Notes: generated by a model from the sequence alone, not told the origin. Positions 14,357-34,327 are shown, counted from the first letter of the stretch. The stretch is DNA of 52,474 nucleotides from an uncultured Verrucomicrobiota bacterium (GCA_946610035.1 CAMOCC010000011.1:1-52474), one strand, 5' to 3'. Numbers and translations are program-made.

Positions 14357-17236
14357 TCAATCCGCAACGCCGGAGACCGCGACGTCGAATTCAAGCGTGT
14401 AGGTCTTCCCCGTCTTGAGCAGCCACCTGTCGTGCGGCCAAGCGCCCCAGCTGTGGTCGCCGCCGATGCCCATCATGTCGGAGTCGATGTTGACAGTGAT
14501 GAAATCGTCCTTCACGAGCTCCTCCTCGTGCCGGGCGTCCTCCAGCTTGCGCTGACTCCACGGCCAGACGTTGAAGTTGAAGTTCCTCCCCGACGCAGTG
14601 ACGAGGACGCGCCGCCTGCCGTTGGAGACGGAGAGCCTCCTTGTGTCCGTCCTGTATCCGCATTCCGACGGACGCACGTAGTGCGAGTCGTTCAGTTCGT
14701 CCACATCCATCGAGTAGAAGTCGACGAAGGACGAAACATTGCGGTCCGGGTAGTTCTCCCACGGACCGCGTCCGTACCACTTGACGCGCGTGAAGTCGGC
14801 CGGCAGAGTGAAAGTCACGCCGACTCGCGGAATCACGGGTGCACCCTCCGGCGCGGCAAGGACGAGCTTCACGTGCTTAGAGCCGTCCTTGTTGTCCGTG
14901 ACCGAGATGTCGCCTTTCGCGCCCTCCGGAAGGCTCCCGCCGTCCCTCCATGCGCGAAGCCTGCCGGCAAAGCCCGCACCGCGGTCGCTGTCCGTCAGGG
15001 CGCGCCACGTGTTGAGCCTGAACTCCAGCTTCGGCTCGTCGAGGGACGCCGCGCGGCGGGACGGCACCGTCCGCTCCCCGCCCACGAACACCTGGTCCGA
15101 GGCGATCTCGCGTCCTCCCTCGCGGAAGCGGAACGTGACGAAGCGTTCGCCCGCTACGTTGTCGAACGGACCCTTCCAGCCCTCCAGCGCAACCTCCGTC
15201 GTGGCGGACGGCGCAACTCCCGCAGTCGGAACGGCGCCCTCGGCGAGGACGCGTCCGTCCGCCTTCAGGCTCCACGTTCCGTCAATCCCGTCCAGCGTCC
15301 TGAACGAGTAGACGCTCCTCAGCTTCGCCTTGCCGGACTTCGCGTCGAACGCGACGACGTCCACCGGCTGCATTGCGTGCTTCAATTCGAACGCGCCCGG
15401 ATGCGGGTTGTAGCGCGCGTCGTACAATCCGTTGCAGTTGAAGTTCGAGTCGTTCGGCCTGTCCCCGAAGTCGCCTCCGTAGGCGAGGTTTCCATTCTTC
15501 TCCAGCGCCTGATCCTGCAAATCCCAGATGAACCCGCCCTGGAGGATGTCCACAGTCTTGTACTGGCGCCAGTATTCGTGGACGTCGCCGGACGAGTTGC
15601 CCATCGCGTGTGCGTACTCGTGGGCGATGTACGGCTTCGCCGGACGCGGCTTGCGCCGCGCGTAGGCGGCGAGATGCTCCGGCGGATGGTAGCCTGTCGC
15701 AAAGATGTCCGTCTCTTCCATCCCCCTCTCGCTGTGCGGCTCGTACTGGACGGGGCGATGCGGATCGGCGGCCTTCGCCGCGCGCCACGCCGCGACCGTG
15801 TTAGCCCCGAAGCCGGCCTCGTTGCCGATGCTCCAGACGACGACGGACGGATGGTTGTACAGCCTTGCGATCATGTTGGTCACGCGCTCCACGTGCTGGG
15901 CGAGGAAGCGAGGGTCGTCGGGAATCGTCCCGCTCAGTTCATGCGACTCCACATTCGCCTCGGAAAGGACGTACATGCCCTTTTCGTCGCATATCCCGTA
16001 CCAGTCGCTCGCACACGGATAATGGGAGGTGCGCACGGCGTTGATGTTCATGTCCTTCATCCGCTCGACCGTCCGCTCCATGTCCGCGCGCGTCACGGTG
16101 TAGCCCGTCCTCGGATCCATCTCGTGGCGGTTCACCCCGCGCATGAGGACGCGCCGTCCGTTGACGCGAAGGACTCCGTCGCGTATCTCCACCCTCCGGA
16201 ACCCGACGCGCTGCGCCGTCCAGTCCCTCCCGCGCCTGACGAGGAGCGTGTAGAGCGTCGGCGATTCATCGCTCCACGGCGCGGCCTTCGCGACTGTCGC
16301 GCGCACGCGCCCGGACGCGTCGGTTCCGCCGCGCCATGCAACGCCGCCATCGCGGTCCTTGAGGACGACCTCAGATGCAAGACCCTCGCCGTTGAAACCA
16401 CAGACCTCGATGTCGAGCGTTCCCGCGCCGGTCGTCTCGTCGTAGTCGGACTCGGCCTTCACGTTCCATACGCCGTCCTTCGCCTCGGCGGAGAGCCACA
16501 CGGACCGGAACAGCCCTGACAGCCGCCAGAAGTCCTGGTCTTCGAGGAAGCTTCCGTCGCACCACCGCAGGACTTCGACTTCGAGGTGGTTGGTGGTTGG
16601 CGAGTGGTTGTTGGTGGCGAGATAGGGGGTGATGTCGAACTCGGCGGGGAGTCGTCCGTCCTCCGCATATCCCGCGAACTTTCCGTTGACCTTCAGCGTG
16701 AGGCACGACCCGAAGCCGTCGAAGTGGATTATTATGCGGCGTCCGCTCCAGCCTTCGGGCAGCGTGAAGCTCCGCCTGTAGCGTCCCGTCGGATCGCGAT
16801 ACTCCATGCTGGTGAAGGACTTGTCCCCGGGCTCCTCAAGGATGTTTGTTGTGCACGTAGTATGAGGGAAGCGAATGTTCGTATAGATCGGAGGATCGAC
16901 CGCTACGCCGCACGCCTCGAGGCATGCGGGCAGCTGCCAGCATCCCGGGACGGCGATTTCCGCGTTCTCAAGTTCCCATGCGGACGCATCGGGACGCCGC
17001 TTCCAGTCGAACCGCCATTTGCCGTCCAGACTCATCGTCCACTCGCTCGCCGTGCGTGGCTTAAGGAAGGACGCAATGTCCGCCGCGTCCCTCTCAGACA
17101 CGGCGAGCGCGGCATCGCACCTCTGCGGCAGTCGGGCGATGCCGCTTACTGACGTATCGTTCCACGGCGCGTTGGCGGTCGATGCAATCGCCGCGGCGAA
17201 CGCAAGTACGTTTGCAACACAAACTAATCTCTTCAC
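14357..17236 (-). CDS. Exported beta-galactosidase, glycoside hydrolase family 2 (LacZ type)
   Basis: A 959-residue multidomain enzyme. A GTG start at 17236 follows GGAGGAG and gives a signal peptide (LVCVANVLAFAAAIASTANA). The N-terminal sugar-binding domain (SLDGKWRFDW, PGCWQLPACLEA) and Ig-like domain precede the TIM barrel. The barrel has the acid/base Glu in VVWSIGNEAGFG (near residue 473) and the nucleophile Glu in YIAHEYAHAMGNSSGD (near 540). The C-terminal small-chain domain includes VKWYGRGPWENYPDR and HYVRPSECGYRTDTRRL. The signal peptide makes it periplasmic or outer-surface rather than the usual cytoplasmic LacZ, which fits a role in polymer breakdown with its GH43 and GH95 neighbours. 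Confidence 0.95.
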   Translation of the reverse strand: MKRLVCVANVLAFAAAIASTANAPWNDTSVSGIARLPQRCDAALAVSERDAADIASFLKPRTASEWTMSLDGKWRFDWKRRPDASAWELENAEIAVPGCWQLPACLEACGVAVDPPIYTNIRFPHTTCTTNILEEPGDKSFTSMEYRDPTGRYRRSFTLPEGWSGRRIIIHFDGFGSCLTLKVNGKFAGYAEDGRLPAEFDITPYLATNNHSPTTNHLEVEVLRWCDGSFLEDQDFWRLSGLFRSVWLSAEAKDGVWNVKAESDYDETTGAGTLDIEVCGFNGEGLASEVVLKDRDGGVAWRGGTDASGRVRATVAKAAPWSDESPTLYTLLVRRGRDWTAQRVGFRRVEIRDGVLRVNGRRVLMRGVNRHEMDPRTGYTVTRADMERTVERMKDMNINAVRTSHYPCASDWYGICDEKGMYVLSEANVESHELSGTIPDDPRFLAQHVERVTNMIARLYNHPSVVVWSIGNEAGFGANTVAAWRAAKAADPHRPVQYEPHSERGMEETDIFATGYHPPEHLAAYARRKPRPAKPYIAHEYAHAMGNSSGDVHEYWRQYKTVDILQGGFIWDLQDQALEKNGNLAYGGDFGDRPNDSNFNCNGLYDARYNPHPGAFELKHAMQPVDVVAFDAKSGKAKLRSVYSFRTLDGIDGTWSLKADGRVLAEGAVPTAGVAPSATTEVALEGWKGPFDNVAGERFVTFRFREGGREIASDQVFVGGERTVPSRRAASLDEPKLEFRLNTWRALTDSDRGAGFAGRLRAWRDGGSLPEGAKGDISVTDNKDGSKHVKLVLAAPEGAPVIPRVGVTFTLPADFTRVKWYGRGPWENYPDRNVSSFVDFYSMDVDELNDSHYVRPSECGYRTDTRRLSVSNGRRRVLVTASGRNFNFNVWPWSQRKLEDARHEEELVKDDFITVNIDSDMMGIGGDHSWGAWPHDRWLLKTGKTYTLEFDVAVSGVAD

Positions 17237-20141: not shown

Positions 20142-20790
20142 ATCCGAGTCCCCGCTTGGTCTCTATCAGCTCCGGCTCGCCCCGCGCATTCAGCTCCCTT
20201 CGGATGGCATATATCTTCGCCTCGACGACGTTCGTCTTGGCGGCCTCGAAATTCCACACTTCCTTGAGCAGAAACCCAGATGACATCCATTTCCTGGGAT
20301 TGCGTATGAACACTTCCAGCAGGCGGCGTTCCAGCCCGGAGAGATTCAGTTCGCGGCCGTTCCTGTAGAACAGGTCTCGCGACGAATCGAACACTAGGTC
20401 CCTGTATGCGACTTCCGAGCCGCATTCGTGCGCAGACCTGCGCAGGACCGCCTTTATGCGGGCGACAAGCTCGTCGGGCGAGAACGGCTTGACCATGTAG
20501 TCGTCGGCGCCGGACGAAAGCCCGGCGATGCGGTCCGCCGTCGAGGCAAGCGCGCTCAGCACTATCACCGGCGTTCTGTCCCCGTCCGTGCGCATCTTCG
20601 CCAGCAGCTCCTTGCCGTCCCCATCGGGTAGCATGAGGTCAAGCACGACGATGTCGTACCGGTTCCTGGACATCAAGTCCACGCCCTTGGCCACTGTATC
20701 CGCGACATCGGACGCAATGCCGGCGGCTGACAGTCCGAGCCTGATGAGCTTGACCTGATCGAAATCGTCTTCTATCGCAAGAACTTTCAT
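20128..20790 (-). CDS. OmpR/PhoB-family response regulator
   Basis: A 220-residue regulator. The receiver domain has the acidic pair EDD at the N-terminus, the phosphorylated Asp in VVLDLMLPDGDG (Asp51) and the conserved Lys in YMVKPFSP (Lys101). The C-terminal winged helix ends IETKRGLGYALR, typical of OmpR/PhoB. It is first in a two-gene operon with the kinase. The ATG is 7 bases past a TATAAT box (20798-20803), so the transcript is probably leaderless. Its target genes are unknown; it is a second candidate to bind the 11-bp-spaced repeats found in the RHS control regions. Confidence 0.95.
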   Translation of the reverse strand: MKVLAIEDDFDQVKLIRLGLSAAGIASDVADTVAKGVDLMSRNRYDIVVLDLMLPDGDGKELLAKMRTDGDRTPVIVLSALASTADRIAGLSSGADDYMVKPFSPDELVARIKAVLRRSAHECGSEVAYRDLVFDSSRDLFYRNGRELNLSGLERRLLEVFIRNPRKWMSSGFLLKEVWNFEAAKTNVVEAKIYAIRRELNARGEPELIETKRGLGYALR

Positions 20791-22437: not shown

Positions 22438-22471
22438 CCTCTGCGCACTCAGCGACTCTGCGACTCTGCGC
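22438..22471. repeat. CTCTGCG short direct-repeat element
   Basis: Four imperfect units of about 9 bases built on CTCTGCG. The element spans the gap between the O-antigen-ligase-like gene and the esterase gene. It supplies the ribosome site of the latter and the last codons of the former. Confidence 0.7.
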
Positions 22472-23741
22472 TTGTTATCAACCGTGTAGAACGTGTAGAA
22501 ACGTGTGGAACAACGGCGTTTGTCGGCGGGTCGAAGAACTCTGGCGGATCGACAAGTTTAAGCCGCGCACCCTTAAACCGCCATGCAGATTCCGCCGTGT
22601 CGCCGAAAAGCCACACCTCGCCTGCGTCTTCCGCGTTCACAGGGACTCCGGGCCTTATGCAGAACCGCGCGCCATTCGGAAAACGTTTCGCAACCGACTT
22701 CAAACTCCATTCCTCGTCGCGGTAAACAGACGGCACGGTAGGGACGGCGTTCCATCGCCGTCCGCAAACCACATACTCCCCTTCCACCCTCGGCGTATCA
22801 TCCGAACGAAAACAAACCACCACCGCGCAAAGTCCAACCACCACACACCCAATCGACAACGCTACCCTCCCCACAACTATCCTTCCAAAACCCTCTGCGT
22901 ACTCTGCGTCCCTGCGTCTCTGCGTTAAAAACAAACCCCGCCACACGCAACCCACCCCCATGACGACAAACGCCGCGAACAGCCCCCACGCCAGCGCAAA
23001 ATTCACAGCTCCATATCCGCCCTTCTCCGCAAAGTCGAAAAGCACATGCCAGTCAAACACCGACGCCGAGAACGCCGAGACCGCAAGCCCCGCGAACGCG
23101 ACCCACGTGCGTCGCATCGTCCGCCCGACGCAAAGCGCCAGCGCGATGAACGCAAGCCACGCGCCCCCGACAAACGCGCCCATTTCGGCGAGCAACGTCA
23201 GATGCGAGTTGACAAGCGTTCGCACCGTAATCCCATCCGGCAGCATGAACGCAGACGCGATCTCGCCGGAGTTGCCGAATCCCACGCCCATTGGATTCGC
23301 CGCGAAGAGCTGAAGCCCCGCAAGCCATATCTTCGGCCGGTTCATCACCGCCCCGTCCAGCGCCAGCCTCGGCCACATCCACCATGCGGCAACCGCAAGC
23401 ACAGCCAACGCGACCGACAGGGTAGGGACGGCGTTCCATCGCCGTCCGCTGCAAAGGCGTAACGGGTGTGGCAAGGCCGCCTCGGCCTTGCTCGCGACCA
23501 TCTCACACCACCACAACACCGCCGCCTCCATCGCCAACACGACCATCCCCGTCCTCGAATACGTCATCGCGATCATCACGCACAGCGCGACGCCCGCGAT
23601 CCGCCCGGCCCACCGCCATTTTCCGCCGCACCATCCCCAGCAGAACGGGAACAGCGCGCATATAGCGGCAGCGGCGTGGTTGGGGTTCGCAAAGCCGAAG
23701 GCGTGGCGGAGGATTCCGTTGACAGTGAATTCAGTCACCAT
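22449..23741 (-). CDS. O-antigen ligase/polymerase-like membrane protein, apparently missing its N-terminus
   Basis: A 430-residue multi-spanning membrane protein. MTYSRTGMVVLAM is the SRTG motif that begins the O-antigen ligase (Wzy_C) domain, and the large periplasmic loop with ANPMGVGFGNSG and the following helices also fit. In full-length relatives about 150 residues and several helices precede FANPNHAAAAI; here only ~20 do, so the gene is probably truncated. The start (ATG 23741) is 33 bases from the end of the next upstream gene. Two copies of a palindromic repeat are inserted in frame (encoding RRWNAVPT), and the C-terminus is made of short repeats. It may be non-functional. Confidence 0.65.
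   Translation of the reverse strand: MVTEFTVNGILRHAFGFANPNHAAAAICALFPFCWGWCGGKWRWAGRIAGVALCVMIAMTYSRTGMVVLAMEAAVLWWCEMVASKAEAALPHPLRLCSGRRWNAVPTLSVALAVLAVAAWWMWPRLALDGAVMNRPKIWLAGLQLFAANPMGVGFGNSGEIASAFMLPDGITVRTLVNSHLTLLAEMGAFVGGAWLAFIALALCVGRTMRRTWVAFAGLAVSAFSASVFDWHVLFDFAEKGGYGAVNFALAWGLFAAFVVMGVGCVWRGLFLTQRRRDAEYAEGFGRIVVGRVALSIGCVVVGLCAVVVCFRSDDTPRVEGEYVVCGRRWNAVPTVPSVYRDEEWSLKSVAKRFPNGARFCIRPGVPVNAEDAGEVWLFGDTAESAWRFKGARLKLVDPPEFFDPPTNAVVPHVSTRSTRLITSAESQSR
22483..22511. repeat. CGTGTAGAA short direct-repeat element
   Basis: Three near-identical 9-10-base units (CGTGTAGAA, CGTGTAGAAA, CGTGTGGAAC) inside the 3' end of the O-antigen-ligase-like gene. A second copy of the same type is at 32995-33020. 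Confidence 0.65.
22737..22764 (+). repeat. TTCCAT-loop palindromic repeat, copy 1
   Basis: GGTAGG lead, then an 8-bp perfect stem GGACGGCG/CGCCGTCC around loop TTCCAT. It is inserted in frame in the O-antigen-ligase-like gene. Confidence 0.85.
22892..22925. repeat. CTCTGCG short direct-repeat element, second copy
   Basis: Four units based on CTCTGCGTA/CTCTGCGTC, in frame within the O-antigen-ligase-like gene, where they encode a TQRRRDAEYAE stretch between predicted helices. Confidence 0.7.
23421..23448 (+). repeat. TTCCAT-loop palindromic repeat, copy 2
   Basis: Identical over its 28 bases to the copy at 22737-22764 and again in frame in the same gene, encoding RRWNAVPT on the minus strand. 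Confidence 0.85.
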
Positions 23742-23774
23742 CAAAACAATGATGTTTGCGCGAGGCCAGTCTTG

Positions 23775-24425
23775 TCAGCCCAGCGTCACAGACCTTAATC
23801 TTGGATCCTCGCCATATCGGTTCGCGCCATGTGTGCCATCTATGAAACCAGCAATCATTACCGTAACCAGCGAGGACAACCACCAAACTTTAGGTACAAA
23901 CGAAAACAAAAAGAGCAACAGCGCAAGCCACCCAGGCAAATTGCAATCGCAGAACCTTCGGATGACTGCAGGCAGCATCACGATTTTCAAAGCAACAATC
24001 AACAGCAACCCAACAGCTGAAATTGCCACACACCATCCAGGCGTAGTTTCCCAGAACGAATACACGACTAAGGATTTATGCCATGCAAACACCCAAAGGG
24101 CCATCGGGAAAGCAATGAATAATTCAATTGCATACACCCACTTTGCTCTCGTCCAGAAATCTGCCCTGGTCCATCTTACGCACCCCTTCCCGCATGTCCT
24201 GACGCCTTCCGGCTCTCTGCGGTTGCATTCCGCGAGGCCCGTGGCAAAAAACACCAACAAGCCAAGACACGAGGCAAGCGACAGCAAATGGCAGCACATT
24301 TTTCCTGCAACCCCAAGCCTGGACAACAGGTCCACGCCAAACACATCAACGCTCAACGCAGATATGGCATATGAAATCAACGCTGCAACGGCAGCCACAA
24401 CACCGCAAACATACCCAGTTTTCAT
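23775..24425 (-). CDS. Multi-pass membrane protein downstream of RHS1 (candidate immunity protein)
   Basis: I do not recognise the family. The 216-residue protein has about five hydrophobic segments (VCGVVAAVAALISYAISAL, LLSLASCLGLLVFFATGLA, YAIELFIAFPMALWVF, AISAVGLLLIVALKIVML, LPGWLALLLFLFSFV). It starts 13 bases after the RHS1 stop, and its base composition is AT-richer than the RHS1 core, like the RHS1 tip. Position directly behind a variable RHS tip is typical of immunity genes; that is an inference from layout only. The start is ATG 24425, or GTG 24428. Confidence 0.7.
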   Translation of the reverse strand: MKTGYVCGVVAAVAALISYAISALSVDVFGVDLLSRLGVAGKMCCHLLSLASCLGLLVFFATGLAECNRREPEGVRTCGKGCVRWTRADFWTRAKWVYAIELFIAFPMALWVFAWHKSLVVYSFWETTPGWCVAISAVGLLLIVALKIVMLPAVIRRFCDCNLPGWLALLLFLFSFVPKVWWLSSLVTVMIAGFIDGTHGANRYGEDPRLRSVTLG

Positions 24426-24438
24426 CACGTATGCCCTT

Positions 24439-27400
24439 TCATTCCTTGATTGAGTGGGATAGCGAAACCTTAAATGACCCCAGCTTCGTCAACCCTGGCA
24501 AGTCAGTCTGCCATCCCGTACTAACGGAAAATCCCGATGGCAACGGTATATCGGCACCTACATACTCGCAAGTGTACACTGTAAACGTATACGTATATTT
24601 GACCGAACGCTTATCCTCGGATCTCCACACATCAGGAGCTCCGTAAGTTGCAAAATATGATCTTCCTGACCTTATAAAAAGGAACGACCAGCCAGCCGAT
24701 GTCGCCATGCCATCCCGATCTGGATCGTCCAAAGTATTATACAAAGACCACTGCCCAGTTATTTGCCCAACGGCAATATCCGCAACCCCGCCATTGTCGA
24801 GTCCCACATAAGGAATGGTAACATCAAACCTATCACTAACCCACTTCTTTTCAACTATGTAAACCTGATGGGAAAGAGTCCAGCCCGGAGCCCGACCTAC
24901 TATCACCTCAACTTCGTGTTCGTTCCAGCTCATACCGCCTTTTGCCGTCTTTGCACCAAAGACATCAACATTTACCGTCGCGGCATTGTTGCAGTACGCG
25001 AGCTGGTTCCAACCATCCGGATACCCCATGGGGTCGGCGGACTGCCACTTGGCGAGACCCGCGCGGTAATTGCGCATCCAGAAGGCGTGACCGAGGCCTT
25101 CGACCATGGGCTTACCAGTGAAGAATGCCTTATCGGCGTCAGATCCCTCGCCAAAGGCCGTAAGGGCTGCGGCGGAGTACTTGCCGTTCGACTTTGAGCC
25201 GACGGTCGTGCCAAGCGCGTCGTTGAAGTACGAGGTGCCCTTCGAGGATGCGACCGGGTTGCCACCTCCGACGTGCGGCTCGTTGATGAACTGCTCGTCG
25301 CCGCGCTGGATGAGCGCGAGGCCGTCCCAGAGGAAGGATTCGGTTTCGGACGCGACGGAGCGCGTCCCTCCCAGATAGGTGGCGCTCGCGAGCTGGCCGT
25401 CGGCGTGATAGGTGAAGGTGCGAGTCGTATCGCCGTCGGTGACGGAGAGAACCTTGTCGAGGTAGCCGTAGCGGTAGGTCTTGGATCCCTCGCGGACCAT
25501 GCGGCCCGCCGCGTCGTAGCCGTAGCGCGTCGTCACGCCGTCGGTCGTGGACGAGACGAGCTGGTTCGCGGCGTCGAACGCGAAGGTGGTCGTGATGTAA
25601 TCATCGGATTGCGGCGTGCGCGGGGCGCCCGCCCTACCGCTGCGGAGGATTTGCTTCTTGAGCATGTTGCCGGCTTTGTCGTAGGCGTAGCGTTCTACCG
25701 CGTTGCCGCCCGCGTCCTTGACAGCGAGCAGCTGGCCCTTCCTGTCGTACTCGTACGTCTGGCGGACGCCGTTCGCGGTGCGGGCGACGATCTGGCCGGA
25801 TTTGGAGTATTCGTAGGTGACAGATGCATCGGGATTGAGCTTCCCGCCAAGATGCTTGCCCGCGAGCTGTCCGTACTTGGTGTACTCGTATTCGATGGGC
25901 GAGCCGTCGACGACCTGGCGCGAGAGGCGACCCTTGGAGTCGTAGGCATACGTCACCTTCGCGCCGAAGCCCGCAGCGGTCTCCGCAAGGCGTCCGAACT
26001 TGTCGTAGGTGCGGTTCTCCTTCGAGACAACCTCTCCCTTGCGGTTCTTCGTGACGCGAGAAAGGCGGTTGCCATAGGCGTCGTAGGTGTAGGTGGTCGT
26101 GAGGCCGCCTTCCTTCTTCTCGACGAGGCGGCCGAAGTGGTCGTACTTGTACGTCTCCTCCGTCTTGCCACGCGTGTGCTTGGCGAGACGGTTCCACTTG
26201 TCGTAGGCGAAGCGCTCAATCTCGCCGTTACCATAGTCGGCGTAGGTGAGCCTACCGAACTCGTCGTACTCGCTCGAAATGCGCCTGTCTTCGCTGCCGT
26301 TCCACTTGGAGACGACTTCCTTGACGAGACCCAAGTCGTCGCGGACGTAGTCCGTGAGCTGGCCTGCGGCGGTCGTGCGTGACTCAAGCCCGAAGCGTCC
26401 CCAGCCGAAGCGGATCTCGTGTCCGTTCTCGTCGATTACCGACGTGCGGCGTCCAAGCGCGTCGTATGAATAAGCGCACTCCGAGCCGTCGGGAAAGCGC
26501 TCCTTCAGCACCTTGCCGAACGCATCGCGCTCGAACGACTTGGAAAGTCCGTCCTGGTCGGTGTAGGAAACGGGACGGCCAGCACCATCGTAGGACACAA
26601 CGAGCGATGTCAGCGTCTCGCTTCCGTCGAGGCGTTCCATGCGGGTCACGAGCCCGGCATCATTGTATGCGTACTTCGTCACGATCCCGTTTGCGTCCGT
26701 AACACTTTCGGGCGCGTTGAAGGTATTGTAGCAAATCTTTGTGATGTTGCCGAGGGGGTCTTTTACGGAAACTGGAAAGCCGGACTTGTTATACGAGACC
26801 TCCGCCTTGCCGCGTCCGTCGTCCACGGACGTCACATTGCCCTGTCTATCGCGGGAAATCCGCGTCGTAAGCGCCGCGGTGCCGTCCGCGTTCAGAAGCG
26901 AGACAGCGACCGGTTCGCGCCCTTTCGCGTATGAAAATGCGGCGACCGGCTCCACCGTGCGCTCTCCGCGCGCCCTGCGCGAAGCCCTCGCGAGCCTTCC
27001 TTCCGCGTCGTACTCGAAGTCTCGGTCGTTGCCGAAGCGGTCGCGGACGCGCGTGACGTTTCCGCTCTTCGCATCATAGCGGTACGAGACAAGGTCCTTT
27101 TCCTCTCCATCGACGATCTTCCTGACCTTGCCGAGATAAGCGACGTCGTAGCGCATGAAGTAGTAGATCGTCGCCTTCTTTCCTGTGAAATCGGAGACGG
27201 AGAAAACGCCGTTTTTCCCGTCGTAGCTGTAGTGCGCGGTGCGGTTCGCCTTGTCGCGGAGCGAGACGCCGTTCTCGTAGGAATAGGCGAAGTTCTCGTC
27301 GCCGGTAATGCGCGCCGTGCGGTCGATCTTCTCAAAGGCGATGTTCTCGCGCATTGCCCCCTGCGAGATGGACGCGAGATAGTTGCCGTTGTAGCCGAAC

Positions 27401-28203
27401 TTCACGGCGTCGAGCGAGCCGCGCTTAACCGAGACGAGTTGAGGCCTGACCGGATGCGCCACCTTGCCGTCCTTCGTGCGAGGTAGAATCTCGAGCTTGC
27501 GGCTCTCGTAGGAAAGCGTCGTCGTCACGCCGCCTGCCATGACCGACTTGGCGAGCGCGCCGTCGTAGGCTATGGAGACGAACGCCGTGCCGTCCTGCGA
27601 GACGGCGGCGAGGCGTCCGTCGGCGTCGTAGGAAAAGTCTGCCGTGCGTCCCGTTGGGGCTGTGATCTTCGACAGCCTGCCGCGAGAGTACGAGAACGTC
27701 CAGCCGACAAGGGAACGCTTGCCTTTTACAATCCAGTTGCCGTCCACCTCGGGGTTGCCAGTGGCGACGTCCGCCTCCCACTCGGAGTACGGCGCGAAGT
27801 AGCCGCGGCCCTTCTTCGCCTCTTCGACGACATCAATCTTGACGGCGTCCTTCGGCGTCTTCTCGTTCTTCGGGAAGAACTTCACCCTCTCGCCCCAGGG
27901 AGAGGTCCAGAGCATTCCGTCCTTGTCCCAGACGGCGGAAGACTCGAGCTGCGGCGAGCGCCACGCGAAGCCGAACACGCCAGTCTTCTCTGAAGAAGAC
28001 TCGTAGACGAGCTCGACGGGCATCGTCAGCTCAGGCGACATGCGCGCAACGCCGAGGATGCGGCTTTCGACGTAGCCCGCGTCGGTGAGCGATGCGCGGC
28101 CCGCGAGAAGCGGGCGGTTGGAGAAGTCGACGCGCTCGGCGGCGACGGAAGCAAAACTCGCTAATGCGGCGAGTAGGAATGCTGCGATTGTCTTCGTTTT
28201 CAT
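24439..28203 (-). CDS. RHS/YD-repeat secreted protein (RHS1)
   Basis: A 1254-residue exported protein. A signal peptide (IAAFLLAALASFASVAA) and a ~150-residue N-terminal domain precede a long array of YD repeats (forms such as YDAFGK, YDALGRRTSV, YEYDRKGQLLAV), which fold into a hollow shell. The RHS closing region is YRAGLAKWQSADPMGYPDG followed by NNAATVNVDVFG. After it comes a ~170-residue tip (24442-24951) that matches neither RHS2 nor RHS3 and is AT-richer. A palindromic repeat (25620-25638) adds the residues SGRAGAPRTP in frame. The promoter is one of two near-identical copies in the window. Toxicity of the tip is not proven. Confidence 0.9.
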   Translation of the reverse strand: MKTKTIAAFLLAALASFASVAAERVDFSNRPLLAGRASLTDAGYVESRILGVARMSPELTMPVELVYESSSEKTGVFGFAWRSPQLESSAVWDKDGMLWTSPWGERVKFFPKNEKTPKDAVKIDVVEEAKKGRGYFAPYSEWEADVATGNPEVDGNWIVKGKRSLVGWTFSYSRGRLSKITAPTGRTADFSYDADGRLAAVSQDGTAFVSIAYDGALAKSVMAGGVTTTLSYESRKLEILPRTKDGKVAHPVRPQLVSVKRGSLDAVKFGYNGNYLASISQGAMRENIAFEKIDRTARITGDENFAYSYENGVSLRDKANRTAHYSYDGKNGVFSVSDFTGKKATIYYFMRYDVAYLGKVRKIVDGEEKDLVSYRYDAKSGNVTRVRDRFGNDRDFEYDAEGRLARASRRARGERTVEPVAAFSYAKGREPVAVSLLNADGTAALTTRISRDRQGNVTSVDDGRGKAEVSYNKSGFPVSVKDPLGNITKICYNTFNAPESVTDANGIVTKYAYNDAGLVTRMERLDGSETLTSLVVSYDGAGRPVSYTDQDGLSKSFERDAFGKVLKERFPDGSECAYSYDALGRRTSVIDENGHEIRFGWGRFGLESRTTAAGQLTDYVRDDLGLVKEVVSKWNGSEDRRISSEYDEFGRLTYADYGNGEIERFAYDKWNRLAKHTRGKTEETYKYDHFGRLVEKKEGGLTTTYTYDAYGNRLSRVTKNRKGEVVSKENRTYDKFGRLAETAAGFGAKVTYAYDSKGRLSRQVVDGSPIEYEYTKYGQLAGKHLGGKLNPDASVTYEYSKSGQIVARTANGVRQTYEYDRKGQLLAVKDAGGNAVERYAYDKAGNMLKKQILRSGRAGAPRTPQSDDYITTTFAFDAANQLVSSTTDGVTTRYGYDAAGRMVREGSKTYRYGYLDKVLSVTDGDTTRTFTYHADGQLASATYLGGTRSVASETESFLWDGLALIQRGDEQFINEPHVGGGNPVASSKGTSYFNDALGTTVGSKSNGKYSAAALTAFGEGSDADKAFFTGKPMVEGLGHAFWMRNYRAGLAKWQSADPMGYPDGWNQLAYCNNAATVNVDVFGAKTAKGGMSWNEHEVEVIVGRAPGWTLSHQVYIVEKKWVSDRFDVTIPYVGLDNGGVADIAVGQITGQWSLYNTLDDPDRDGMATSAGWSFLFIRSGRSYFATYGAPDVWRSEDKRSVKYTYTFTVYTCEYVGADIPLPSGFSVSTGWQTDLPGLTKLGSFKVSLSHSIKE
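25620..25638 (-). repeat. GGTAGG-led palindromic repeat inside RHS1
   Basis: Minus strand GGTAG then GGCGGGCGCCCCGC, a 5-bp GCGGG/CCCGC stem. It interrupts an otherwise regular YD repeat in frame. Confidence 0.65.
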
Positions 28204-28213
28204 ATCGCAAAGT

Positions 28214-28271
28214 ATTCTACCATATTCATCCGCCGCTGTGTCAAACTATTTGTTTACAATTTCGTAAAGTT
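28214..28271 (-). promoter_or_regulatory. RHS1 promoter, copy A of a duplicated promoter
   Basis: Contains -35 TTGACA (28239-28244) and extended -10 TGGTAGAAT (28214-28222), 19-base spacer, with the RHS1 ATG 10 bases past the -10. The 58-base block matches 44991-45048 with a single mismatch, including the distance to the start codon. Confidence 0.85.
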
Positions 28272-28293
28272 GGCAGAGTGAAAAATTAAGAAG

Positions 28294-28322
28294 AAATTAT
28301 TTTCAAATCATCTTGAAATCAT
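28294..28322 (+). promoter_or_regulatory. Triple 11-bp direct-repeat operator, copy A
   Basis: AAATTAT, AAATCAT and AAATCAT begin at 28294, 28305 and 28316, exactly one DNA turn apart, and end 10 bases before the -10 box of the winged-helix gene. Seven-base half-sites with 4-base spacers placed over the -35 region are the arrangement bound by PhoB/OmpR-type activators. Confidence 0.75.
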
Positions 28323-28329
28323 TTTCGTT

Positions 28330-28338
28330 TGATACAAT
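28330..28338 (+). promoter_or_regulatory. Extended -10 of the winged-helix regulator gene
   Basis: TGATACAAT on the plus strand, 7 bases before ATG 28346. It has no -35 box; the AAATCAT repeats occupy that place. Confidence 0.7.
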
Positions 28339-28345
28339 ACTAAGC

Positions 28346-28681
28346 ATGAAAACGGGACAGACTTCTAAACGGCAAGAGCATAAATTGAAATGCATCGCCA
28401 TCGGCGATCTTGAGTACGACCCTCAGCATCAGTGTCTGCTGCATGACGGGCTATTGGCTAATTTGACGCTCTGCGAATCGAAGATTGTCGCCTATCTGTT
28501 CAGCAACGATCGCCGCAACGTTTCCGCACACGAGCTGCTGAGCTTTGCACTCGGATGCAAACCACAACAAAAGACTACAGCCGCCGAAAGACACATCTGC
28601 ACCGTCAGAAAGAAGATCGCAGCAATCGGTGCGACAACGACAATCAGGACTATCCGCTATCAAGGATATTTCATAGGCTAG
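28346..28681 (+). CDS. Stand-alone OmpR/PhoB-type winged-helix DNA-binding protein
   Basis: A 111-residue protein that is only a DNA-binding domain, with no receiver domain. It shows the full OmpR-type pattern: GDLEYDPQHQCLLHDGLL (beta strands), LTLCESKIVAYLFSN, VSAHELLSFALG, the recognition helix TTAAERHICTVRKKIAAIG and the wing IRTIRYQGYFIG. ATG 28346 follows the -10 by 7 bases, so the mRNA is probably leaderless. Its own promoter carries three AAATYAT repeats, so autoregulation is likely, and the same repeats sit before the 45159 operon. Activity may depend on protein level or a ligand, since there is no phosphorylation site. Its end overlaps the convergent gene by 11 bases. Confidence 0.88.
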   Translation: MKTGQTSKRQEHKLKCIAIGDLEYDPQHQCLLHDGLLANLTLCESKIVAYLFSNDRRNVSAHELLSFALGCKPQQKTTAAERHICTVRKKIAAIGATTTIRTIRYQGYFIG

Positions 28682-29192
28682 AATTTACCATGCGCTGTAT
28701 CCACAGCCACGACAGCGTACTTTGAGATGACGAAACAACCGGCGACCTAGTAGCATTCCCAAGTCGCGTAAACAGGGACAGGTAGCGATCTTCGGCAGCC
28801 AAACCGTATGGCGTATCACCTCTCTTAAGTCTCTGAGCCATGATGCTGTATCTCCCCGCGATCACCCAATCTGAATCAAGCATGTTGGCACGGCAATCCA
28901 CGACAGGTAGCTTCGCCGGCATTCGGTCGAAAGCAATGGCCGACACAAACTGGCGGTCAAGTCCGTCAAGGCGAGAGAGATCGTCCACATGGAACACCAG
29001 TGATTCGGCAGGACCAACATTCTCGCGAACAAGACGGACGGCATCATTCAGCTCGTCTGCGACGCGCGACGGCGAGTTGCAGGAGGCCACGATCTTTTCG
29101 GGGGTGATCATGCTGCCAACCCGCCACACGGCGAACGTGAAAATCGCCAACGCGGCTATGTTAGCCGACAATTTCAGGCACCGGCCGTTCAT
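28671..29192 (-). CDS. Small membrane-anchored protein in the RHS2 unit, unknown function
   Basis: I do not recognise this 173-residue protein. It has one N-terminal hydrophobic segment (LSANIAALAIFTFAVWRVG), then a soluble part with LVFHVDDLSRLDGLDRQF and a run about orientation of acidic and basic residues without clear motifs. Its ATG overlaps the upstream lipoprotein gene's stop by 4 bases, so translation is coupled. It is AT-richer than the core genome, matching the rest of the RHS2 tail. A second immunity-type gene for RHS2 is one possibility. Confidence 0.65.
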   Translation of the reverse strand: MNGRCLKLSANIAALAIFTFAVWRVGSMITPEKIVASCNSPSRVADELNDAVRLVRENVGPAESLVFHVDDLSRLDGLDRQFVSAIAFDRMPAKLPVVDCRANMLDSDWVIAGRYSIMAQRLKRGDTPYGLAAEDRYLSLFTRLGNATRSPVVSSSQSTLSWLWIQRMVNSSL

Positions 29193-30079
29193 TGTTTGCT
29201 GCGTTCAACCAGCATGCGGCCTATCTCGGTTTTGAAATCATCCAGCCCGCTTATCGGCTCGAACAGCTCGGGATGGCGTTTGCAGAGCTCCGGATACTTC
29301 GAGACCTTGCCGTCCCGGTGCCAGAGCCAATAAACGATTTCGGAAATTTCACGCCCGCCCAGTACAACATCCCCAAGATAAAGCTGGCTATCCCATTCTC
29401 TCTTAGCAATGGCACACAACTGTCCTTCGTCCTCTGATAACGATAGTTTGCCCTTTAAGGCTTTTTCTGCACACTTATAATCAACGCTAAACGCCCCGCC
29501 GTCGCAGGTCTTGAATACGCGATTAGAGAATGCGCCAGCGTAATAATCACGATTTGAATCTTTCGACAGAAACTTCGTGAGCGAAGTGCTTACTCGTCCG
29601 CCTGGAATCAATTCAATGGCATCATAACGACTTTCAATAATACTTCTTTGCGGCGTCATAAAAAAGATTCTGCACATACCGAGTGAAAATGATGCTGAAC
29701 CACAGTAATTGATTGTGTCGTCATTCATGTCAAGTTTCGAATGACGATCTGATTCGTAGAAAAAAAGCAAATTCTGATCTAAAGAAGGAATTGGTATGCC
29801 ATCAGCCCAACGCGAGTCAATCATGCTTTCCGCCGCAACCAATCCAAAACGCCAAAATTGCGGCAAAATGTGATTTTGTCTGCTAAATGTCAATTTCTTT
29901 GAATCAAACAATATTGCAAAGGTGACATTCTGACAATAGTTTTGAATCGACTGTACTACAGACTCTTTTATCGAGCTATCGGTCATGCGAAAAGCCACGA
30001 CAGCCTGTGCATCGACGGCACAACCACTTATTAAACAGAAGGACAACGTCAGAGCCGACATTTTACCTAAAAGCTTCAT
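29189..30079 (-). CDS. Putative lipoprotein downstream of RHS2 (candidate immunity protein)
   Basis: A 296-residue protein of unknown family. From ATG 30079 it begins with a lipoprotein signal ending LTLSFCLISGC, so it should be anchored in a membrane after export. The mature part has several cysteines (NYCQN, NYCGSA, GMCRIF, KTCDGG, DYKCAEK, QLCAIA), which suggests disulfides. An upstream start at 30163 is possible but would lie deep inside RHS2. The gene starts 17 bases before RHS2 ends and overlaps the next gene by 4 bases. Export plus position fits protection against a periplasmic or surface-delivered tip; this is inference. Confidence 0.7.
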   Translation of the reverse strand: MKLLGKMSALTLSFCLISGCAVDAQAVVAFRMTDSSIKESVVQSIQNYCQNVTFAILFDSKKLTFSRQNHILPQFWRFGLVAAESMIDSRWADGIPIPSLDQNLLFFYESDRHSKLDMNDDTINYCGSASFSLGMCRIFFMTPQRSIIESRYDAIELIPGGRVSTSLTKFLSKDSNRDYYAGAFSNRVFKTCDGGAFSVDYKCAEKALKGKLSLSEDEGQLCAIAKREWDSQLYLGDVVLGGREISEIVYWLWHRDGKVSKYPELCKRHPELFEPISGLDDFKTEIGRMLVERSKQ

Positions 30080-31826
30080 GTTTTGCTCCAAATTGAGGGG
30101 CTTTAATATGGGATTGCTTATAATAAAAACAATGATACCGACCATAAGCGTTAAACTTGGCATTTTCCTTTGCCTTGAGTTCGCGATAAAGGCTTCTTGT
30201 ATTCCACAATTTTGTCGAAGTGTTACCTTCCTTTACTGTCTCATATTCGACATTTACGTACTTAGAAATTGCCTTTTCCTTCGGTGTTTCTTTGAAATAT
30301 GACGGCACCAAATCTGCAAAGCTAGGAGAGCTTACAAGCCCAAGAAGGTCAAATTTAGATATCGGGGAGTTGGAGACATATCCGTACAAACCAGGTTGAT
30401 ACTTTTCTGCGGCACGATCTCGTGAAAGCCATAAGGCCGAATGTGAATTATAATGCCGATGATTAAAATAAATCAAACTGATGTCATCATCACTATACTC
30501 ACTTGAAAATCGCCACGGATTCTTTTCAGCGATTGAACCAATTGCAACGCGCTCATAGCCAAACGCACCATATTCATAATGTGTAACGCATTCCTCATAC
30601 CCATTCACCGACTCACTTATGTTCTTGTTTCCATCATGCGTGTAGTAGACTGAAGGCGCGTTGGAGTAGATAAACACAAGCGGCCTTGTCGCAATTGGCT
30701 CTGTCGGATCCCAGATGAAGCTGTCGGCTGCAATCGTTCCGTCGATTTGCTCTCTATGTCGAGCTATAGAGACATAGTTGTCGTAGGTGAAGGCTTTGCT
30801 GGCATTGGTTGTGGCACCATGGGTTTCGAGATGTTGCACGCGCCTGCCCATTCTGTCGAACGACATGACGATATTAGTGACGCCATTGGACCAGAATATC
30901 GGACGGTTCTCTCCGTTGTAGGTGACAGACCATACGCCGGTTGCAGTCTTGACGAGAGTCTGGTTGCCGTCATCGTCGAACTGAGGAGTGAAGGCCTCAC
31001 GCGGAGACGCGGAGAACGCGGAGTTGGAGATGGAAGTGTATTGGTTTAGGTTGTTGGCCGCATATGCGGACGAGACAAGCTCATCCCTCCCGGCGTCAAT
31101 CTCCGAAGACGTGATGCGATTACCGATGTCGTCGTATTCGTAAGCAAAGTCATTCTCCGCGCCCTCCGCGGCTCCGCGTGAGAATACCAACTCGCCGCGG
31201 GCATTGTAGCCATACACGTCTGTACGGTTCTCAGACATCGCAGAACCCGAACGCGCAATTTGAATGCGACGACCAGCGGCGTCGTAGGCGTAGTCATACT
31301 GCGAGATTGTATTGGACGGAAACGCATTCTGGACTTGTAAAAGTTGGCCGTTGGCATCGTATGCACAAGATGCCGTGAGCCCGTTGGGGTATGCAAGCGA
31401 CGATTTAAGGTCGCTTCCAGGCAGATACGACCACACGAACGGCGTATCGCTGCCGTCGGCAAGCATCGACGCGAGGCGGCCGGTGGCGGGGTCATAAGAG
31501 AGGGTGGACTGGCGACTCGGCGGGCAGAGGGCTGCCCGCCCTACCGTGCTGTCCAAGCTGTAGCCGAGAGAGCGGCCGAAGGAATCCCAGTGACGGATGA
31601 TGGTGTTCGTGCCCGCAACGCCGATAACCGTTTCGTTGGTGAGCCGATCAAGGTCGTCGTAGGCGTATGATTTCTGGGACGACTGGGACATCTGGGACGG
31701 ATGGGACGGATCTCCCAGCGCATGGGAACGCAAGACGATTCGCCCTGCGGCGTCGTATTCGTACCCGAAGCCGCCGCGCGTCGCGCCGCTTGTTGTGCGC
31801 CATGATATGTTTGTCACCAGATCCAT
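30063..31826 (-). CDS. RHS/YD-repeat protein lacking N-terminal region and signal peptide (RHS2)
   Basis: A 587-residue protein that begins directly in YD repeats (GFGYEYDAAGRIVLRS). It resembles the last third of RHS3, sharing LTNETVIGVAGTNTI, YPGSDLKSSLAYPNGLTAS-type stretches, FDDDGNQT and WSNGV. It closes with WLSRDRAAEKYQPGLYGYVS and FDLLGLV, then a unique 90-residue tip (30066-30335). I choose ATG 31826, since the TGGTAGAAT box at 31841-31849 lies just before it; ATG 31850 would fall in the box. With no signal peptide it cannot be exported by Sec as it stands. It is probably a truncated copy or a store of an alternative tip. Confidence 0.8.
   Translation of the reverse strand: MDLVTNISWRTTSGATRGGFGYEYDAAGRIVLRSHALGDPSHPSQMSQSSQKSYAYDDLDRLTNETVIGVAGTNTIIRHWDSFGRSLGYSLDSTVGRAALCPPSRQSTLSYDPATGRLASMLADGSDTPFVWSYLPGSDLKSSLAYPNGLTASCAYDANGQLLQVQNAFPSNTISQYDYAYDAAGRRIQIARSGSAMSENRTDVYGYNARGELVFSRGAAEGAENDFAYEYDDIGNRITSSEIDAGRDELVSSAYAANNLNQYTSISNSAFSASPREAFTPQFDDDGNQTLVKTATGVWSVTYNGENRPIFWSNGVTNIVMSFDRMGRRVQHLETHGATTNASKAFTYDNYVSIARHREQIDGTIAADSFIWDPTEPIATRPLVFIYSNAPSVYYTHDGNKNISESVNGYEECVTHYEYGAFGYERVAIGSIAEKNPWRFSSEYSDDDISLIYFNHRHYNSHSALWLSRDRAAEKYQPGLYGYVSNSPISKFDLLGLVSSPSFADLVPSYFKETPKEKAISKYVNVEYETVKEGNTSTKLWNTRSLYRELKAKENAKFNAYGRYHCFYYKQSHIKAPQFGAKHEAFR
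31519..31545 (-). repeat. GGTAG-led palindromic repeat inside RHS2
   Basis: Minus strand GGTAG followed by a 9-bp perfect stem GGCGGGCAG/CTGCCCGCC around CCCT. It adds about 11 residues (TVGRAALCPPS) that are absent from the matching place in RHS3. Confidence 0.8.
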
Positions 31827-31840
31827 GATGTCGTGCATAT

Positions 31841-31849
31841 ATTCTACCA
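31841..31849 (-). promoter_or_regulatory. Extended -10 promoter of RHS2
   Basis: TGGTAGAAT, the same nine bases as in the RHS1 and PA14-gene promoters, but without the surrounding 58-bp block. Confidence 0.5.
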
Positions 31850-31867
31850 TAAATCCGATTCCGTTTG

Positions 31868-32980
31868 CTATCTAGCGAGCAGCACACCATATATGATCAA
31901 CACACCCAACACCGCGAACATGACGCCGAGCGCGACCTTGGCGGGGATGACGTTGCGCGACGACCACTTCGCCATCTGGAAGGCGTCCGTCGTCTTCGAG
32001 GCGAGGACGAACACGGCGACAAGCGGAGAGACGAACGCGAGGTTGTAGAGGGCGAGCAGCGCAAAGGAACGCCACGCGCCCGGCTCGCGGGATATGAGCG
32101 CGAGGACGGGAACATAAACCTGTCCGGTGCAGAGCGCGTCGAGAAGCGTCACGAGGAACGCGCAGCCAAAGCCCGCGAGGGCGACAGCCGGACCGCTCAA
32201 GCTCTCCATCGCAATCTTACGTATCAGCACCTTCACCCCCTCCGGCAGCTTCAATGTCACGACGGAGAAGACGGGTATTTTGCGGAAGCGCAGCGCATCG
32301 CGGAAACTCAGGAACGACAGTACGAAAAGCGAGAGCGCAAGAAGCGTCATCACAATATCGTGGACGACGCGGAGCCCTTCCAGCGCCTTAAGTGCCTGCA
32401 TAAGTCCGAGGCCCATCAGCATGTAGGTGACGAACGTGCCGACGCAGAACGCGAGTCCTCCGATGATGCGCGCGCGGCGCTTGCGGCCTCCGATGGCGAG
32501 TATTCCGGCGAGCGAGATCATGATCGCGAAGGAGCAGGGGTTGAATCCGTCGACGATTCCAGCGAGGAGGACGGTCGGAAGCGTCCATCGCGACGCGGCG
32601 GCGGCGGTCTTCGACTCTACGGCGGTGCCGGTAACGGGAATGTTGATTACCGGACTTTCAGGATCGTCGCAGAGAATCTGGACGTGCTTAGAGAATTCGC
32701 CCGGGAGCATGGCCTTAAGCGAGACCGAGAGAGTTGCAGAAGACGACGGCTCGATGCGCATCGAGGAAAGCGATGCTTCAGCACCGCAGCAGCCCTTCAC
32801 CTGCGAGACGGTGACGGGAGACGGCGAGGCGTTGCGCAGCTCGATGGACTTCGACGCGACCTCGCCTGCGGCTATCTCGCCGAACGCCACGCCTTCAGGT
32901 GGGATGGTGAGCCGCGTGGCAGATAGTGCCGAGATGAATGGGGAACAACATAAACAAATGAAAACAACTTTTCTTTTCAT
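31868..32980 (-). CDS. DUF1573-like domain fused to a CcdA/DsbD-type electron-transfer membrane domain
   Basis: A 370-residue membrane protein. After a signal peptide comes an Ig-like DUF1573-type domain (residues ~25-115) containing VKGCCGAEASL and ILCDDPESPVINIPVTG. Six to eight transmembrane helices follow, with the two CcdA/DsbD cysteines: one in VDGFNPCSFAIMISLAGIL and one in LLDALCTGQVYVPVLAL. CcdA-type domains carry reducing power from cytoplasmic thioredoxin across the membrane. In this neighbourhood, rich in cysteine-containing exported proteins, it could keep disulfides in order, though ordinary redox housekeeping is equally possible. The gene ends 19 bases before the RHS2 promoter. 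Confidence 0.85.
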   Translation of the reverse strand: MKRKVVFICLCCSPFISALSATRLTIPPEGVAFGEIAAGEVASKSIELRNASPSPVTVSQVKGCCGAEASLSSMRIEPSSSATLSVSLKAMLPGEFSKHVQILCDDPESPVINIPVTGTAVESKTAAAASRWTLPTVLLAGIVDGFNPCSFAIMISLAGILAIGGRKRRARIIGGLAFCVGTFVTYMLMGLGLMQALKALEGLRVVHDIVMTLLALSLFVLSFLSFRDALRFRKIPVFSVVTLKLPEGVKVLIRKIAMESLSGPAVALAGFGCAFLVTLLDALCTGQVYVPVLALISREPGAWRSFALLALYNLAFVSPLVAVFVLASKTTDAFQMAKWSSRNVIPAKVALGVMFAVLGVLIIYGVLLAR

Positions 32981-32994
32981 GTTTTTACTTTAGC

Positions 32995-33020
32995 CGTAGA
33001 ACGTGTAGATCATGTAGAAC
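32995..33020. repeat. CGTGTAGAA short direct-repeat element, second copy
   Basis: CGTAGAA, CGTGTAGAT, CATGTAGAAC in the gap between the HEAT-repeat gene and the CcdA-fusion gene; same type as 22483-22511. Confidence 0.6.
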
Positions 33021-33070
33021 TTTTGAGAAACTCCGACGGTTGAAAAAATTGGCTCCGTTACCACTTCGCC

Positions 33071-34327
33071 TTAGCTCCGCGTCGCGAAACCGCGATTATT
33101 GCCTCCTACTATGTTTTCTTTATCTGGGGGCGCTGCCCCCAGACCCCCAAAGCTGTCGCTGCGAATTTCATGCGGCTGAACAGCGCGAAGCAGAGGGCGC
33201 AACGTTAGTGAAGCCCCTTTGCCAGCCGTCGGAGTTCCAATATCCTCCCTCTCCCTTATCCGCTTTATCGCCGCCTCGACCGCGGCAGAGCGTCGTGCGT
33301 CGCCCTTGAAGCGCTCTATAAGCGCAATGTCATCCGCGTTGCCGAGAAGCCCGATGGAGCCGATGCAGACCGTGTCGAGAACCGCGTCGCGCTTTTCACC
33401 GGAGAGCGTGTCGCGCAAAACCGGCAGCGCCTCGGAGTATCCTTGCTGCCCTGCGAGCTGTATCGCTGCGATGCGCGCGACGTTGTGGGCGCCAGGCTTG
33501 CAGAGCGCGAGCGTCAGCCGCTTCAGCTCCCCTTCCTGCTCGCGCGTCGCGCGCTTGTCCTCCGCGAGCGAATAGAGCGCAGTCCCTGCGTATGGCTTAG
33601 TCTTCTCGCGTGCCGCCTTCACCAATACTCCGCGCACACGCGCCCGTCTTTCGTCATCCAACTCATTCACGACCGCCCCCAAATGCTGAATACAGTAGTC
33701 GATCACAACCGGCGGATGTATGGTGTTACCCGGTAGGGACGGCGTTCCATCGCCGTCCGTATCACGTGACCGCGCCGGTAGGGTCGCCGTTCCATCGGCG
33801 ACCGCGGCTGGCGATGGAACGCCAGCCCTACATGACCGACCAAACCCTGCAACGGGTCGTCCCTCTATCATCGCCATCAACGTCTCCGCTAATCCTTCCA
33901 CCATCGGCTCCTGACACCGCAACAAATTCATCACGTCATTCTTAAGCGCAGCCACTCGCTCGACCCGCATCGCATCATCCGCCCTGCGCAGATACGCCAT
34001 CAGCGCCGCGACATCGCCCTTCGGCAAATCCCGCCGCCGCGCAATCGACCTGAGCGCGTCATTCCGCGCCTCATATCGTTCCGCCGTAGCCGCGTCCTCG
34101 CCGCACACGATCGCGACGGCACCCGACGCCGCGGCCACCTCGCCATCCGCCACCGGCTCTGGCTTGCGCTCCACCGCCTTTACGCGCACTTCTACGGGAC
34201 GAGGAAACACCGGCACATCCGGCGGCGGCGCAGGTTGCTGTCGGTTGCGCAAGACAGCGGCAACGCCAACCGCGACCGCGATCAGCAGGGCAGTTCCAGA
34301 GACTATTACTATCACTCGCTTTCTCAT
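33071..34327 (-). CDS. Membrane-anchored HEAT-repeat-like protein disrupted in frame by palindromic repeats
   Basis: A 418-residue protein with an N-terminal transmembrane anchor (VIVIVSGTALLIAVAVGVAA) and a proline-rich linker. A helical solenoid follows whose later part looks like HEAT repeats (RIAAIQLAGQQGYSEALPVL, VLDTVCIGSIGLLGNADDI). Three palindromic repeats at 33732-33831 are inserted in frame and encode a low-complexity, glycine/proline-rich stretch of ~40 residues. The last ~30 codons also include a CTGGGGGC/GCCCCCAG hairpin (33124-33142), so the natural C-terminus may be altered. It probably serves as a protein-binding scaffold; I cannot name a partner. Confidence 0.7.
   Translation of the reverse strand: MRKRVIVIVSGTALLIAVAVGVAAVLRNRQQPAPPPDVPVFPRPVEVRVKAVERKPEPVADGEVAAASGAVAIVCGEDAATAERYEARNDALRSIARRRDLPKGDVAALMAYLRRADDAMRVERVAALKNDVMNLLRCQEPMVEGLAETLMAMIEGRPVAGFGRSCRAGVPSPAAVADGTATLPARSRDTDGDGTPSLPGNTIHPPVVIDYCIQHLGAVVNELDDERRARVRGVLVKAAREKTKPYAGTALYSLAEDKRATREQEGELKRLTLALCKPGAHNVARIAAIQLAGQQGYSEALPVLRDTLSGEKRDAVLDTVCIGSIGLLGNADDIALIERFKGDARRSAAVEAAIKRIREREDIGTPTAGKGASLTLRPLLRAVQPHEIRSDSFGGLGAAPPDKENIVGGNNRGFATRS
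33124..33142. repeat. CTGGGGGC palindrome
   Basis: Perfect 8-bp inverted repeat CTGGGGGC/GCCCCCAG with a 3-base loop, inside the 3' end of the HEAT-repeat-like gene. Confidence 0.6.
33732..33831. repeat. Cluster of three TTCCAT-loop palindromic repeats (copies 3-5)
   Basis: Copy 3 (33732-33759) equals copies 1 and 2. Copy 4 (33777-33804) has stem GGTCGCCG/CGGCGACC. Copy 5 (33806-33831) is inverted, with stem GGCTGGCG/CGCCAGCC. All keep the loop TTCCAT and a GTAGG lead, and every stem is perfectly paired despite different sequences. All lie in frame in the HEAT-repeat-like gene. Confidence 0.85.

Follow-up and report, generated by a model that had tools for sequence, protein, structure and literature searches.

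The hairpins repeated in the 52,474-nt stretch of DNA analysed here (the window) are, with a probability of about 0.93, GTAG-type REPs, often arranged as REPINs, that is, non-autonomous elements recognised and moved as single-stranded DNA hairpins by a REP-associated tyrosine transposase (RAYT) encoded on contig C125 of the same assembly. The evidence for this reading comes from the copy number of the family, the pairing of its stems, the geometry of its dimers, the empty and filled sites in related genomes and a RAYT gene that itself carries the repeats. By analogy with E. coli and other RAYTs, the enzyme would act at the GTAG foot, cutting and rejoining single-stranded DNA, with replication forks as the probable setting, so that copies would spread by transposition through cleavage and strand transfer, and we infer that this activity continues.

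Hairpin copies in the window and across the genome

The natural parsing of all five window copies is an unpaired GTAG, an 8-bp stem, the loop TTCCAT and an exactly complementary arm (5/5), hence the second G of the lead GTAGG given in the first-pass annotation is a base of the stem. The copies, the pair formed by two of them and the two genes that hold them are listed below.

22738..22763, plus strand: REP copy, GTAG with stem GGACGGCG and loop TTCCAT; the minus-strand host gene reads GRRWNAVPT
23422..23447, plus strand: REP copy, stem GGACGGCG, loop TTCCAT; host peptide GRRWNAVPT
33733..33758, plus strand: REP copy, stem GGACGGCG, loop TTCCAT; host peptide DGDGTPSLPG
33778..33803, plus strand: REP copy, stem GGTCGCCG, loop TTCCAT; host peptide VADGTATLP
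33806..33831, minus strand: REP copy, stem GGCTGGCG, loop TTCCAT; host peptide RAGVPSPA
33778..33831, no strand: head-to-head REP pair, a REPIN-type dimer with the 2-bp spacer GC, as in other dimers of the family
22449..23744, minus strand: host gene 1, 431 aa, weak O-antigen ligase (Wzy_C) match below the cut-off (Pfam E 4.8e-5); two in-frame REPs
33071..34327, minus strand: host gene 2, 418 aa, HEAT-repeat-like (HEAT_2 E 0.0025, below the cut-off); three in-frame REPs

The first-pass annotation had reported these five copies and all are present, but it placed the plus-strand starts (22737, 23421, 33732 and 33777) one base early. Its further statements on the window hold, in that the stem occurs in three sequences, each perfectly matched by the partner arm in all five copies, each copy lies in a reading frame and is read through without a stop, and the core genes of the first 18 kb carry no member of the family. 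The sole tag and loop match in that region, at 15479, has unpaired arms and is therefore taken to be a chance match. It is the sixth match to the tag and loop pattern in the window, where 0.07 were expected by chance and none of 100 shuffles reached six. The palindrome is free of stop codons in five of its six frames. Single-strand folding of three window copies gave about -10.5 kcal/mol (z -2.7 to -3.7), and the interval 33775-33834 folds as a double hairpin in which the two GTAG ends are paired together (z -4.5).

The assembly (G000, a draft Kiritimatiellae-type MAG of 3.03 Mb in 191 contigs, 88% complete) was searched blind to the stem with GTAG-N8-TTCCAY, i.e. selecting by tag and loop only. 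Perfect stems were found in 25 of the 29 copies recovered, in five sequences (GGACGGCG, GGCTGGCG, GGTCGCCG, GGTCGGCG and GGGCGGCG); when the arms were shuffled among the 29 copies (20,000 shuffles), perfect pairs averaged 6.8 and reached a maximum of 15. The tight pattern gave 26 copies in the whole genome and its reversed control gave 0. The genome-wide search for GTAGG and TTCCAT with complementary arms that had been proposed as a check is thus positive, the family extends beyond the window, and unpaired stems are far from being as frequent as paired ones among copies chosen by tag and loop. The changing yet paired stems had been read as selection on the hairpin itself; this stands, most simply as selection for a transposase substrate, but selection at each site is not required because spreading copies arrive already paired.

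Approximately 17 of the 26 copies lie within frames longer than 160 aa, a count made without a gene caller in a genome where spurious frames are common. Copies run both ways relative to genes, and are also present in unrelated genes and in intergenic DNA. Their number, in the tens, is low for a REP family. Across the loci examined, head-to-head pairs have spacers of 2 bp (n=9) or 8 bp (n=9), the 2-bp spacer being GC in the dimers spelled out, and certain stem combinations recur: GGACGGCG with GGCTGGCG at 2 bp and GGACGGCG with GGTCGGCG at 8 bp. This geometry resembles that of REPINs and suggests a spread of whole dimers.

A loose pattern with 11 fixed bases returned background matches only in relatives, and the tight pattern was therefore used for comparison between genomes. 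Among 388 genomes of the phylum it was present in five, all from the taxonomic family of the window, and in none outside that family; within the family, 25 of 115 genomes carry it, with up to 45 copies. The family members that bear names in the public scan are MAGs from rumen and gut assigned to Kiritimatiellae, Lentisphaerae or Verrucomicrobia; handles were linked to such names through identical match coordinates, by which G248, for example, is probably SIG88 and G452 probably RUG10884. Viral contigs searched for the repeat pattern gave no match. Oscillospirales-type gut contigs contain the exact pattern too; there the stems are related, the loop is identical and other GTAG hairpins are in some cases adjacent. 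These occurrences could reflect transfer, shared ancestry or convergence.

A RAYT gene that carries the same repeats

The search for a RAYT, also proposed in the first-pass annotation, was positive. Positions 119-784 of C125 encode an intact HUH/Y1 RAYT of 221 aa with the motifs MPDHLHF (HUH) and YICNN (Y). The gene holds four intact in-frame copies of the family (258 plus, 295 minus, 336 plus and 535 minus) and a degenerate fifth at about 373-398, also in frame and ending GTCCCTGC. Its product matches the NCBIfam model NF047646 'REP-associated tyrosine transposase' with E 2e-18 (66.7 bits, against a curated cut-off of 80) and, by sequence, the TnpArep of PDB 4ER8 with E 4e-4. The gene was located via the REP-bearing contigs; a Pfam PF01797 search of the assembly returned two other Y1 proteins (on C1 and C47) and missed it, the likely reason being that the domain is interrupted by the REP inserts. 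Neither of the two was retained as the cognate enzyme, since the C1 protein has none of these repeats inside and the C47 RAYT is frameshifted and goes with a different, GGGAGG-tagged palindrome family. Palindromes with the GGGAGG lead lie on both flanks of the C47 gene (L252, match at contig position 20305), and an intact-looking relative of it is present in G009 (L307).

An AlphaFold model of the L120 RAYT was poor (pLDDT 47.7) and was therefore used only for the positions of the insert loops, predicted at approximately residues 29-88 and 132-141. Foldseek searches with this low-confidence model returned Y1 transposases as all of the first matches, the best by TMq (0.43) being 4ER8.

Orthologs of the C125 RAYT in G452 and G453 (73 and 75% identity) have the same repeats both within the gene and next to it. 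G453, G452 and G000, in which the cognate RAYT is intact, hold 45, 37 and 26 copies and are the top three among the 115 family genomes. When the copies of the RAYT cluster are left out their ranks become about 1, 2 and 6, so that the link with copy number is weaker, being supportive and not conclusive. A close cognate RAYT was not found in the copy-rich genomes G373 (25 copies), G447 (24) and G457 (23), where the assembly could be broken by repeats or the gene could have been lost. G248 was at first counted as a RAYT genome and then dropped because its gene is an N-terminal fragment, which runs to the first REP and continues into sequence resembling the region downstream of the C125 gene. From the sequence this looks like an apparent REP-to-REP deletion, as if two REPs had recombined.

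Empty and filled sites in the host genes

Host gene 2, the product of which has a hydrophobic N-terminus, was compared over one homologous interval with its relatives in the same genus and order. The interval is 72 bp and empty in G002, G027, G050 and G032; it is 147 bp (+75) in G008, with one head-to-head inverted REP pair, and 207 bp (+135) in the window and in a putative paralog on contig C6, with three REPs. Both differences, 75 and 135 bp, are multiples of 3 and keep the frame, and the empty sites support the earlier statement that the copies were inserted in frame. In G009 and G030 the interval (117 bp) is filled by other sequence. The middle REP differs between the window and the C6 paralog by two bases per arm, both versions being paired; judged from the sequences, this can be a compensatory change or a replacement by another REP copy. 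In host gene 1, some relatives have both sites filled, G011 for example, and the REP is absent in G006 and G012. Other palindromes or unrelated inserts are found at its first site in G009 and G030, and the spot is therefore considered permissive.

Transposition into such sites was weighed against three other explanations. A local role of the hairpins as RNA structures in the genes that carry them, acting on mRNA stability, attenuation or termination, would agree with their stability, with stems that stay paired and with their retention by both window genes in several species; it is nevertheless unlikely, because orthologs in the same genus have empty sites, the copies per site vary (0, 2, 3), and both orientations, unrelated genes and intergenic DNA all carry copies. 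Selection of the unit as a peptide module was rejected as very improbable: although every window copy is in frame and peptides like GRRWNAVPT and DGDGTPSLPG recur, the same DNA is translated in both directions and in three or more frames, with unrelated peptides as the result, and the DNA hairpin is the constant part. Chance palindromes in G+C-rich coding DNA, a composition that does yield long spurious frames, were also rejected and are extremely unlikely in view of the copy numbers against controls (0.07 expected and 6 found in the window, 26 and 0 for the genome and the reversed pattern) and of pairing far above that of shuffled arms.

Under the preferred reading of mobile REPs, insertions whose combined length is divisible by three and that fall in permissive loops would add a short peptide, be tolerated and be kept, given a palindrome that lacks stop codons in five of its six frames. 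The predicted proteins of these genomes contain REP-derived peptides (GRRWNAVPT, DGDGTPSLP), which is useful for annotation.

Several further features were seen in or near the host genes. Contigs C6 and C18 of the assembly (L241, L242) carry frameshifted copies of both genes, about 80% identical and with REPs at the same sites, which may stem from a duplication before the split or from a second strain in the bin. A palindrome, GTG-GCAAGGCCG-CCT-CGGCCTTGC, lies at 23468-23491 of the window, 20 bp past the second REP, and G009 and G030 have a similar GGCCGAGGCGGCCTTGCC stretch at their homologous site. An CTCTGCGT-type tandem motif (ctctgcgtactctgcgtccctgcgtctctgcgtt) lies in frame inside host gene 1 at about 22888-22932.

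Published systems and the other RAYTs of the clade

The GTAG REP super-family (Di Nocera et al. 2013, PMC3733652) comprises 24 families, including that of the verrucomicrobial Opitutus terrae, with stems of 6-13 bp, stem sub-families that differ by complementary changes, association with RAYTs, in-frame intragenic copies and HH and TT dimers, among them dimers of O. terrae with spacers of 1-2 bp. The present repeats share the unpaired 5' GTAG at the foot of the palindrome (the criterion for this 20-40 bp class), an 8-bp stem, multiple copies, complementary stem variants, dimers, in-frame intragenic copies and a RAYT. They differ in the 6-base TTCCAY loop and in their occurrence in rumen and gut Kiritimatiellae, a comparison made with the written description of the 24 families.

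REPINs consist of two inverted REPs separated by a short spacer of preferred length (Bertels and Rainey 2011, PMC3116915). The inverted pairs described here likewise have short, preferred spacers, whereas copies number tens and not hundreds and many are single REPs. In-frame REPs within the RAYT gene are the hallmark of RAYT subclass 2.4 (Quentin et al. 2018, PMC6006769), which is equivalent to group 4 in the scheme of Bertels et al. The C125 gene resembles such a REPtron in containing in frame, and being flanked by, its own REP family. In contrast to subclass 2.4, most internal copies here come before the HUH motif, where they separate the first strand from the first helix, and only one of the four intact internal copies in the C125 gene follows that motif. 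As each of the main features has been published, we regard the system as a new REP family and a new RAYT within known GTAG-REP/REPIN/REPtron biology. Two features were not found in the GTAG-REP/RAYT literature compared, namely REPs placed in the loop ahead of the HUH motif, and RAYT paralogs that each have a separate REP family at matching loop positions. The system provides a well-documented REP/RAYT pair from an uncultured gut lineage, with orthologous sites that are empty or hold two or three elements.

Several RAYTs here have REP families of their own. G000 encodes a second RAYT of this clade, on contig C119, with GTAG-GGCGGTCGC-CCC hairpins, and the four genomic matches to this pattern are all in its gene or flank. 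The hairpins borne by other RAYT genes are as follows.

G460 and G453 (contig C126): GGTCACGCG-TCC
G454: GGCGGTTTC-GAC
G019: GGCGGCGAG-ACCC
G439 and G450: GGGGCGCAC-CCC

In translation the inserts fall at two shared positions, one following the first strand (...YFITICA...) and the other following the HUH strand (...HFIV...). With enzyme and substrate in one gene, the specificity of a RAYT for its REP can be read from sequence. The RAYT genes of the clade thus hold REPs in frame in those two loops, each from a different family of its own, which extends to paralogs within a single genome and to a distant RAYT in an Oscillospiraceae bin. A functional role of the internal copies, as a built-in substrate matching enzyme and REP or as an autoregulatory DNA or mRNA hairpin, in place of tolerated insertions, is a possible but unlikely reading.

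A lone GTAG hairpin of another REP family, GTAG-GGCGGGCAG-CCCT, is present on the minus strand of the window at 31519-31544, inside the 30063-31850 frame, and is related to the RAYT hairpin of G019 (given as GGCGGGCAG-ACCC). A distant RAYT of another phylum, in Oscillospiraceae bin SIG588 (L180, 2919-3476), contains in-frame GTAG hairpins of a separate kind, located in the two corresponding loops. Near the second RAYT of G000, at 604-864 of C119 (L317), there is an array of palindromes with G-rich leads and a period of approximately 87 bp; its hairpins are GTCCATCGC-TCC and GGCCATCGC-TCC, and similar hairpins with TCC loops occur elsewhere in the genome.
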